A stretch of DNA of 64,000 bases from Polyangium mundeleinium (lineage in GTDB: Bacteria; Myxococcota_A; Polyangia; Polyangiales; Polyangiaceae), in the NCBI RefSeq assembly GCF_028369105.1, contig NZ_JAQNDO010000001.1:2411711-2475710 (forward strand), written 5' to 3'. Made by a program: the position numbers and the translations under genes. Every line of letters starts with the position of its first letter. Within the stretch, counting starts at the first letter, position 1. The notes below the pieces were generated by a model. The model was not told where the DNA came from and did no database searches. It saw only the letters and a list, made by a program, of their open reading frames with translations. Below, one piece after another: positions 2,642-5,618 of the stretch.

Positions 2642-3409
2642 TCAAGGCGCAGGGCTTTCGACCCGGAGGCAGCGTAGGCCGATGGGTTGACCATTCCCGA
2701 GGTAAAGCTCGTTCATCGCGGCGCCGGAGACGGGGAGCGGCACGACGTGGTCCGTCTCCGGCGCGAGGTTCCCCAGCGCGAGCGCGCCGTCGTCGGCGCG
2801 CACGTAGACGTCGAGCGAATAATAGAAGTGGAGCGGGAACGAATCCTGGCCCTGCTGGGCCGCGAGCGTCGCCTCGAAGAACGCGAAGTCGCTCTCCTCG
2901 AACGCGCTGACGTCGGCCTCGGTGGGCATGCGCCAGTCTGCGCCGAGCTTCGCTGCGCACACGTCGACGTCATCGACGTGCTGCGGGACCCAATAAGGTT
3001 TGGCGCCGTAATCTTCGTACGCGCAGCGCGCCACTTCGTCGTAATTGGCGGCGATTTCGGCCTGCGTGAGGGGCGGCCCGCCCGGGACCTGCTGCTTGAT
3101 GGCCGGGTGCGTGGGCGCGCAGAGCGGCACGAGCTCCTCGAAGGTGTACACGTCGTCGAGGAGCGCGGCGCGCTCGGCCTCGGAGAGCGCGGGATACACG
3201 CTCGCATCCTGGAACATCTGAAAGACACGCGCGTCGGGGAAGAGCGGGGCCGAGAGCTCGATGCCCGGCGCCCCCGCGTTTCCGGTGGCGATCGCTCCGG
3301 CGTACTGAAGTCCGGGCTGGAAAGCTTCATTTTGCTGCTGCGGAGCCCCCGGGCCTTCCGCGCAGCCGGCGACCAGCACGAACAGCGAGAACAAGAATCC
3401 TCTTCGCAT
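2642..3409 (-). CDS. Putative lipoprotein of unknown function, end of chemosensory operon
   Basis: A 255-residue protein with a clear lipoprotein signal: MRRGFLFSLFVLVAGC, with the lipobox Cys at residue 16. The mature part is acidic and Cys-containing, with segments such as ADWRMPTEADVSAFEESDF and a C-terminal IGLRCLRV that recall the DUF1566 or formylglycine-like fold of surface proteins, but the match is too weak to name. It lies 12 bases after the DisA_N-like gene on the same strand, so it may be the last cistron of the chemosensory operon. An outer-membrane or periplasmic location is inferred from the lipobox only. Confidence 0.7.
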   Translation of the reverse strand: MRRGFLFSLFVLVAGCAEGPGAPQQQNEAFQPGLQYAGAIATGNAGAPGIELSAPLFPDARVFQMFQDASVYPALSEAERAALLDDVYTFEELVPLCAPTHPAIKQQVPGGPPLTQAEIAANYDEVARCAYEDYGAKPYWVPQHVDDVDVCAAKLGADWRMPTEADVSAFEESDFAFFEATLAAQQGQDSFPLHFYYSLDVYVRADDGALALGNLAPETDHVVPLPVSGAAMNELYLGNGQPIGLRCLRVESPAP

Positions 3410-3421
3410 GACGTACCTCCC

Positions 3422-4528
3422 TCACTCGTACAACGTGACCCTTCCATCCCGATTGCGCACGCATTTGATCGAGCCATCCTGCGAGCAAACAAAAGCCGCT
3501 CCGCGAGGGTACGCCGCGCAGAAGCGGAACGCGGATCGATGCCGCGTGCCGTAGGCCTCGACGCTCCGGGACGTGCCGTCCGGCAGGAAGATCGTTTCGA
3601 GCTCGGTCTGCGCGAGCACCTCGACGCCGAATCCGAGCACTCGATATCGGTCCGTGAGGAGCAGCGCTCCGTCCACCGCCGTGAGGCCGGGCAGCCGTTC
3701 GAGCAGGCGGCGCGCCTTGTCCTCCGCATACTGGAACTCCATGGCGCCTCGGCCTGGGGAATCCTCGTCGAACTGGAAGACTGATTTTCGCAGGAGCGGC
3801 CAGACCGAATCATCCTGGCACTGATATTTGATTTTGACGAGCTGTCGCCAGGAGAGGGACTTGCATTCACGATCGGGGATGACGAGGACCGTGCCCCCGT
3901 GCCCGAGTTTGCGGATCGTCGAGAGGATATCGTGCAGGTGCGCCGGGTAATTCACCTGGGGAGACCAGGTTCTCCCGCGCCAGTTGACGCCGTCCCATAA
4001 CGCGTCGGTCGCCTCGGCGAGCGCCTCGATCACGGATTGAAAGACGCCGAGCCGCTCGCCCTCCTCGAAGATGCGCCCGTCTTCCAGGGCCACGAGGCTG
4101 CGCATGTTGCGCCCCACGGAGAGCTTCCCGGGCGCCATCACGGAGACGGTGAGCTGCATGTCCGCGCCATTGCAGAATCCCCAGATGAGCGGCTCCTCCC
4201 CGCGTGGATCGACGGTCAGCATGACCTTGGCCGCGTCCGCGGCCGGCGCGAGGCGCATGATTTCATGCGGCGTGAAGATCCTCGGCGGGTCGATCCGGAG
4301 GGGGTGATCGATCTCCGTTTCGCGCAGGTCGGGGCTGCAAACGACGGCGCGGAACTGGGTGCCGCGGCGCTCGTCCGCCGTGTAGCTCGCGTGGTATGCG
4401 ACTTCGAGCAGGAGCGCGAGCTTGTCGTCGCTCGGGAGCGCCGGAGGCTCGCTTTCTTGTCGCGCCCATTCGTACCAGCGCGCCTTCAGCGGCGCGATCA
4501 TGTCTCGGGGATATTTGAACGAGGTCAT
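3422..4528 (-). CDS. DisA_N-like (DACNV-type sensor) domain protein
   Basis: A 368-residue protein from ATG 4528 (MTSFKYPRDMIAPLKARWYE); longer versions would run into cheB. The C-terminal 150 residues resemble a diadenylate cyclase (DisA_N) domain: GGTVLVIPD, then VDGALLLTDRYRVLGFGVEV, then GTRHRSAFRFCAAYPRGAAFVCSQDG. These carry the DGA and RHR signatures of the DAC fold. DAC relatives of this layout have been annotated as probable sensor domains (DACNV). The N-terminal half (EIMRLAPAADAAKVMLTVDPRG) is family specific. It follows cheB by 70 bases on the same strand, so it may supply a nucleotide-sensing or signalling output to the chemosensory system. Whether it makes c-di-AMP is not decidable here. 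Confidence 0.7.
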   Translation of the reverse strand: MTSFKYPRDMIAPLKARWYEWARQESEPPALPSDDKLALLLEVAYHASYTADERRGTQFRAVVCSPDLRETEIDHPLRIDPPRIFTPHEIMRLAPAADAAKVMLTVDPRGEEPLIWGFCNGADMQLTVSVMAPGKLSVGRNMRSLVALEDGRIFEEGERLGVFQSVIEALAEATDALWDGVNWRGRTWSPQVNYPAHLHDILSTIRKLGHGGTVLVIPDRECKSLSWRQLVKIKYQCQDDSVWPLLRKSVFQFDEDSPGRGAMEFQYAEDKARRLLERLPGLTAVDGALLLTDRYRVLGFGVEVLAQTELETIFLPDGTSRSVEAYGTRHRSAFRFCAAYPRGAAFVCSQDGSIKCVRNRDGRVTLYE

Positions 4529-4598
4529 CAAAGCGCAGGCTCGTCGTCCGATGAGACGGCGGTCGCGGTCGCATGTCAAGCAAGCCGAACGCGCGGGC

Positions 4599-5618
4599 TC
4601 AGGCAGCGTGCCACACGAGCAGGTCGCCCATCTTGTCGATCGGCGCCTCTCCCAGCGCGAGGCCCGCCTCGCGAACACACCGCGGCATGCCGTAGACCAC
4701 ACAAGACGATTCCGCTTCGACGAGGAGCCTCCCGCCGGCCGCGTGAATGGCGCGCGCGCCTTCGAGGCCGTCGTCGCCCATTCCCGTCAGCACGACGCCC
4801 AGCACGCCGGCCCCGAATCCCTCGGCGGCGCTGCGGAAAAGGAGATCCACCGAGGGGCGGTGTAACCCCCCGACGTAGCCCGTTTCGAGGCGCGCGTAGG
4901 GGCGCTCCGCCCGGCGCTCGACCCGCAGGTTCGTTCCTCCACGCGCCAGAACCACGAGGCCGGGAGCGAGCTCCTGGTCGTCGAGAGCTTCCTGGACCGA
5001 GACCGCGCTCGCTTCGTTGATTCGACGGGCGAGGGCCGCCGTATATCCCGGCGGGATATGCAGGGCCGCGACGACGGGGACCGGAAAATCACGCGGCAAC
5101 GAGGTGAACAGGCGCGTGAGCGCCTGCGGGCCGCCCGTGGAGGCCCCGACGACGACGAGGCTCGTCCTGTGGATGGGCCGCGCGGCCGGCGTTTCGCGCG
5201 GATGCTCCGCGCCCCGCCGGAGAGCGGCCGCCGCGAGGACCCGGACCACGAGCTCGTTCGAGACCTCGTACAGCCGATCGGTCGCGAGCGAGGTGGGCTT
5301 CTGGACGAGGTCGACCGCCCCGTACGCGAGCGCCTTTTGGCCAAGCTCGCTCTGCGCGTCCGAGATGCTGACCGCCACGACCGCGGGCGCGCCTGTCGTG
5401 GGGAGCGCGCGTAAGACGCCGATGCCGTCGAGGTTCGGCATCACGAGATCGAGGACGACGACGTCGGGCCGGTGCTCGGCGATCTTTTCGAGCGCGTCGA
5501 GGCCGTCCCGCGCGATATCGACCACCTCGAGGCCCGGCTGCTTGCTCAGGACCTCCCGCAAAACCTTGCGCGCGAAAGCCGAATCATCGACGACGAGCAC
5601 CCGGATTGGCCGTTCCAT
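4599..5618 (-). CDS. cheB: Chemotaxis response regulator protein-glutamate methylesterase CheB
   Basis: 339 residues with the classical two-domain order. An N-terminal receiver domain (residues about 5-120) has VVDDS, the phospho-acceptor Asp in VVLDLVMPNLDG and the K of LVQKP. The C-terminal methylesterase domain (about 155-339) has the catalytic Ser in GASTGGP, the His in AALHIPPGYT and the Asp in TGMGDDG. It removes methyl groups from, or deamidates, receptor Gln/Glu and balances CheR, encoded directly upstream (gap of 10 bases). It is soluble. Phosphorylation by the CheA of the same operon is the expected control. Confidence 0.95.
   Translation of the reverse strand: MERPIRVLVVDDSAFARKVLREVLSKQPGLEVVDIARDGLDALEKIAEHRPDVVVLDLVMPNLDGIGVLRALPTTGAPAVVAVSISDAQSELGQKALAYGAVDLVQKPTSLATDRLYEVSNELVVRVLAAAALRRGAEHPRETPAARPIHRTSLVVVGASTGGPQALTRLFTSLPRDFPVPVVAALHIPPGYTAALARRINEASAVSVQEALDDQELAPGLVVLARGGTNLRVERRAERPYARLETGYVGGLHRPSVDLLFRSAAEGFGAGVLGVVLTGMGDDGLEGARAIHAAGGRLLVEAESSCVVYGMPRCVREAGLALGEAPIDKMGDLLVWHAA

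Follow-up and report, generated by a model that had tools for sequence, protein, structure and literature searches.

The gene at positions 3422 to 4528 on the reverse strand of the window, the 64,000-nucleotide stretch of Polyangium DNA analyzed here, probably encodes an active accessory diadenylate cyclase (DAC) of the DACNV-DAC architecture. Judging from its sequence and those of its relatives, we put the probability of this reading at roughly 60%. Its direct basis consists of the two domains of the protein, the conservation of its motifs, purifying selection on the gene, a canonical DAC gene in the same genome and a conserved promoter-like box upstream of the gene.

We infer the following mode of action. 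The N-terminal DACNV domain, to go by its Pfam name, would bind a signal and control the C-terminal DAC-like domain, which by homology would form a head-to-head dimer and join two ATP molecules into c-di-AMP. D286 of the DGA motif and R329-H330-R331 would have the nucleotide-related role that they have in other DACs, with D351 in place of the usual metal-site Glu. The gene would have a promoter of its own and would probably be co-expressed with that of a small lipoprotein. The protein would then be a conditional source of c-di-AMP besides the canonical cyclase, whose gene lies at another site of the genome. All features of the window described below, like this gene, lie on the reverse strand (-).

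The window ORF is a real gene under purifying selection

The window belongs to the 13.25-Mb genome of a Polyangium, a soil myxobacterium. When the sequence was re-read, the ORF, its strand and its coordinates (stop codon included) proved to be exactly as the sequence-only reading had given them, as did the two motifs it had named, DGALLL (residues 286-291) and GTRHRSA (residues 327-333). The ORF runs from an ATG at 4528 to a stop codon at 3422-3424 and encodes 368 amino acids. In three Polyangium relatives, the reading frame extends without a stop for just 13, 17 and 20 codons upstream of the equivalent codon, and this lack of in-frame room supports ATG 4528 as the start.

The closest named relative is the protein of P. 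fumosum DSM 14668, with 97% identity, and those of three other Polyangium strains are 94-96% identical to the window protein. Pairwise dN/dS values among the five Polyangium copies range from 0.056 to 0.092. Since four other copies are 94-97% identical and dN/dS is this low, the window ORF is a real gene that evolves under purifying selection.

The protein combines a DACNV domain with a DAC-like domain

Residues 29-119 (4172..4444) match the DACNV probable sensor domain (PF21751) with 70.4 bits, clearing the curated cut-off of 27 (E-value 1.5e-19). The Pfam-matched part of the DAC-like domain covers residues 270-359 (3452..3721), as placed by PF02457 and by a profile comparison with canonical DACs. 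The PF02457 score of 20.7 bits is below its cut-off of 27 (E-value 3.2e-4), and we therefore class the protein under DACNV and call its second domain DAC-like. Between the two Pfam matches lies a GHGG motif (residues 209-212, 3893..3904), of which G211 and G212 are invariant in 45 aligned rows; it probably marks the start of the DAC fold and thus the domain boundary. The window protein had no match to DisA or any other NCBIfam family at E-values up to 1.

We aligned the protein with its relatives, giving a set of 45 proteins that are all from myxobacterial genomes. At E-values up to 0.01, DACNV is found in 44 of these and DAC in 42. The window protein is thus an ordinary member of a two-domain architecture that already has a name. 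The sequence-only reading had set DACNV relatives, as sensors, against a window protein that keeps catalytic signatures. This contrast was wrong: the name DACNV belongs to the N-terminal domain, DGA and RHR are part of the separate C-terminal DAC-like domain, and most DACNV proteins that we examined have such a domain with both motifs. DACNV should accordingly be read as a domain of cyclase-like proteins and not as a class of dead sensors.

A similarity search found relatives of the window protein in 49 of 289 genomes of the class, and none in the viral contigs scanned. In the tree, five Polyangium proteins and one from genome G276 form a separate clade (support 100/99), which we refer to as the window subfamily. 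The window genome also encodes a second DACNV-DAC paralogue, at C1:10770140. The literature that we searched did not name DACNV and held nothing relevant on diadenylate cyclase in myxobacteria.

Cyclase motifs are conserved across the family

The window protein contains a DGA motif at residues 286-288 (3665..3673), a GTRHR motif at residues 327-331 (3536..3550; RHR is 329-331) and, where canonical DACs have SEE, the sequence SQDG at residues 349-352 (3473..3484). The first two were identified from the sequence and the family alignment. To describe their conservation we used 41 rows, which remained after four near-identical Polyangium rows were dropped from the alignment. DGA, TRHR and SxDG are all complete in 33 of these 41 myxobacterial DACNV-DAC proteins. 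All 41 rows carry D286, G327, R329, H330, S349 and D351, while a complete DGA and R331 are each retained in 37. Twelve active-site columns hold six of the ten invariant columns of the alignment (hypergeometric P 5.5e-8), a somewhat biased test, since almost all relatives were recruited by their similarity to the window protein. The conservation of the motifs is beyond chance, and their retention in the window protein is the rule in this family, not the exception.

Eight proteins depart from the full set of motifs: L062 (DGL), L069 and L087 (both DNA and RHP), L072 (RHH), L074 (SQDT), L083 (GVRHR), L086 (DGS) and L095 (RHN). Strongly degenerate members may be under-sampled in the alignment, as the rows were mostly recruited by similarity to the window protein. 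RHR is essential in M. tuberculosis DacA, which neither binds ATP nor is active once RHR has been replaced by AAA, but which tolerates Ala for the Gly of DGA (PMC3328451). Because their motifs are broken, L069 and L087 indicate that catalysis has probably been lost in some family members. By its motifs, the window protein is not one of these degenerate members, of which L069 and L087 are the examples. The two genes (L069:2095-3240 and L087:7782-8936), with DNA for DGA and RHP for RHR, are candidates for true non-enzyme sensors.

Searching with the DACNV profile alone gave seven matches over the cut-off, in six of 282 genomes of the phylum, and no match over the cut-off in 14 control genomes. 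A DAC-like stretch with SxDG lies at the end of all seven frames. DGA and RHR are present in six of them, and the seventh, L045, has GMRHQ.

Members with a broken DGA or RHR are what would be expected if the DAC fold served here as a nucleotide-binding sensor without cyclase activity, binding ATP or c-di-AMP and reporting to a partner. A PF02457 score below the cut-off points in the same direction. In a pure binder, however, one would expect some active-site residues to have been lost, whereas the ten positions that are invariant over very diverged relatives include D286, R329, H330, S349 and D351. That Asp351 is invariant suggests that this residue is in use. The sequence-only reading had proposed, as possibilities, an active cyclase or else a nucleotide-binding sensor; the first proposal is plausible and stands as the best reading, and the second we consider rather unlikely.

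The window genome encodes a canonical cyclase

A canonical DAC gene, which matches PF02457 over the cut-off, lies at C1:413856 of the window genome. On the opposite strand, at a distance of 1.8 kb, C1:411509 is the site of a gene that matches 7TM-7TMR_HD over its own cut-off, a domain also present in PgpH phosphodiesterases. The canonical DAC and this PgpH-like gene (C1:405000-424000, L092) are a possible housekeeping pair for c-di-AMP, and their presence makes c-di-AMP metabolism plausible in this genome. The genome has three matches to DHHA1 over the cut-off. It contains no match to the c-di-AMP riboswitch RF00379, in a search that gave matches in eight of 14 control genomes and matches over the cut-off in only two.

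DAC matches over the cut-off were found in 128 of 144 genomes of the class, and the DACNV type therefore looks accessory. Laboratory E. coli, for its part, lacks a DAC (PMC6741144). A canonical DAC in the window genome, and DAC matches in so much of the class, would also suit a sensor that makes no c-di-AMP. If the DACNV-DAC protein is instead active, as we favor, large myxobacterial genomes would run more than one source of c-di-AMP, each with its own sensor.

The position next to chemotaxis genes looks mostly incidental

Upstream of the DACNV-DAC gene is a chemosensory cluster, cheA-cheW-MCP-HEAT-cheR-cheB, which runs from 13798 to 4599. Its genes were assigned with Pfam, except for cheR, which was recognized from homologues and its own sequence. 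The last gene of the cluster, cheB (4599..5618), is followed on the same strand by the DACNV-DAC gene after a gap of 70 bases, both in the window and in P. fumosum. Such an arrangement would suit a cyclase controlled by the neighboring CheA/CheB system, coupling chemosensing to c-di-AMP, and the sequence-only reading had indeed suggested that the protein may be under chemosensory control. That suggestion fared poorly, given a promoter-like box in the gap between cheB and the DAC gene and the many che operons with no DAC nearby.

We collected orthologous che operons by a CheB search of 183 genomes of the order, taking the 35 matches with E-values up to 1e-90, past which CheB identities, until then above 50%, fall to about 45%. 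Eight of these operons have a DAC ORF no more than 3 kb from cheB, a limit chosen once the distances had been seen, and in five of the eight the two genes are convergent. Of the eight, five belong to genomes of genus g31 and the others to the window, P. fumosum and Polyangium 6x1 (at 1.8 kb). In the other 27 operons we found no DAC within 3 kb of cheB, although four of them (L134, L140, L149 and L154) have less than 3 kb of sequence downstream. Within Polyangium, the DAC gene and cheB are on different contigs in two of the five gene-bearing genomes (G196 and G197), and G178 has the che operon without a match to the window DACNV-DAC protein. Since no DAC was found near cheB in 27 of 35 operons, including those of these three genomes and of G267 from g31, the che operon and the DAC gene separate readily. 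The DAC gene thus has no conserved position beside the che operon.

In the five g31 genomes (L088, L090, L130, L132 and L133), a diverged DACNV-DAC gene is convergent to the cheB of the orthologous operon, which likewise contains the HEAT gene. The distance to cheB is about 20-110 bases in four of these genomes and 2.9 kb in the fifth. The sixth g31 genome in the search, G267, has no DAC near cheB. The che-linked genes of g31 fall in another clade of the tree, together with L082, L083 and L093 (98/95), but long branches are involved, and the AU test does not reject a tree that unites them with the che-linked Polyangium genes (p-AU 0.1). Two members of the g31 clade overlap genes for single-domain response regulators (L093:9151-9579 and L082:5867-6313), which suggests that some family members are under two-component control.

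The presence of a diverged DACNV-DAC gene near the orthologous cheB in five of six g31 genomes, as well as the response-regulator overlaps in its clade, would be in keeping with chemosensory control. The g31 genes are nevertheless convergent with cheB, and in Polyangium the promoter-like box is also found in copies that are not directly preceded by cheB. Together with the operons that lack a nearby DAC, this makes control of the window protein by the che system improbable in our view. The position beside the chemotaxis genes looks mostly incidental.

A chance DAC neighbor within 3 kb of cheB in another genus should be uncommon, as there are few such genes per roughly 5-15 Mb of genome. As a rough estimate, its chance is a few percent, too common to argue from. 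One could imagine that two diverged DACNV-DAC genes separately joined the same HEAT-containing che operon, in Polyangium and in g31, because c-di-AMP is the signal of this pathway. We regard this as a long shot, and keep the second DAC beside the same operon as the one lead worth following.

Across 46 DACNV loci, within 6 kb on each side and with a simple ORF picker, we found no gene partner that is conserved across the family. Signaling genes encoding receivers, hybrid histidine kinases and Ser/Thr kinases do occur near single members. In L071, L073 and L077, for instance, Ser/Thr protein kinase genes lie within about 120 bases of the DACNV-DAC gene.

The gene looks like a separate transcription unit

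The gap between cheB and the DAC gene contains a promoter-like box (4551..4579), composed of TTGACA (4579-4574), a spacer of 17 bases and TCTCAT (4556-4551), with 10 of 12 matches to the consensus. The box is present in four of the five Polyangium copies, with a spacer of 17 or 18, and in those four its score is equalled by no more than one in 2000 mononucleotide-shuffled versions of the 100 bases upstream. The fifth copy, L038, has the second half of the box only and at best scores no higher than shuffled sequence (0.76). A stricter scan, in which the second base of the second hexamer had to be A, listed no promoter.

Two of the four copies with the box, L037 and L039, are not directly preceded by cheB: the distance to cheB is 1.8 kb in L037, and L039 has no che gene within 10 kb. 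When che-linked and unlinked copies are compared, their sequence match ends upstream of the box. Because the box recurs without cheB and the similarity ends above it, the DAC gene looks, by its sequence, like a separate transcription unit with a putative promoter of its own.

Twelve bases past the DAC stop codon starts a gene for a putative lipoprotein of 255 amino acids (2642..3409), named as such from its first residues. The protein has no Pfam or NCBIfam match. Its gene has a single match in each of four of six Polyangium genomes and adjoins the DAC gene in all four. The aligned lipoprotein stretch of G196 contains one stop, G197 has the DAC gene without the lipoprotein gene, and G178 has neither. 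From this gene order, the lipoprotein gene appears a likelier partner of the DAC gene than the che operon.

Comparison with known diadenylate cyclases

We compared the family with 31 canonical Myxococcota DACs, comprising that of the window genome (L001) and the 30 best-scoring PF02457 loci of the class search. The two profiles match over 57 columns with a probability of 91 (E-value 1.1e-6), and their alignment pairs DGA with DGA, GTRHR with GTRHR and VCSQDG with VVSEER. Against PDB sequences, the family profile weakly matched CdaA structures in the stretch from GTRHR to SEE (best E-value 0.036) and, on the DisA side, 3c1y (E-value 0.69). The two top PDB chains were designed toroid repeat proteins (E-values 0.00026 and 0.0021), which matched the N-terminal region and were taken as spurious. 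AlphaFold2, given the window protein and four Polyangium orthologues only, returned a mean pLDDT of 30.7 for the full protein and 38.9 for residues 190-368, values that carry no confidence. DAC domains work as head-to-head dimers (PMC8573169).

Several features set the window protein apart from canonical DACs. Its third motif has Asp351 in place of the second Glu of SEE, as do all 41 family rows, and V285 stands before DGA, where 30 of the 31 canonical sequences have His. In CdaA, the Glu of SEE and the His before DGA bind metal. The canonical LPL loop is missing, and the stretch from DGA to RHR is 43 residues long, 11 longer than the 32 residues of L001. The family-wide change from Glu to Asp and the loss of His and LPL are further points in favor of a sensor without activity. 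The missing loop and the longer stretch could also reflect an altered pocket and a cyclase that makes a different dinucleotide. Nothing in this analysis points to another substrate, however, and no DAC-domain enzyme is known to us whose main product is a different one, so we hold this to be very improbable. If the protein is an active cyclase, as we propose, the Asp found throughout the family at the metal-site position would provide a natural test of what a DAC active site tolerates.

Compared with other myxobacterial DACNV (PF21751) proteins, the window protein has the same domain order, the same motifs and the same SxDG third motif. A WL...GGR insert after DACNV, which is found in many of these relatives, is absent from the window subfamily. 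With CdaA/DacA and L001 the protein shares DGA, (G/S)(T/S)RHR and the Ser of the third motif, and it differs from them in its N-terminal region, which is DACNV. DGA and RHR are likewise shared with DisA, whose third motif, SQE, is close to the SQD of the window protein.
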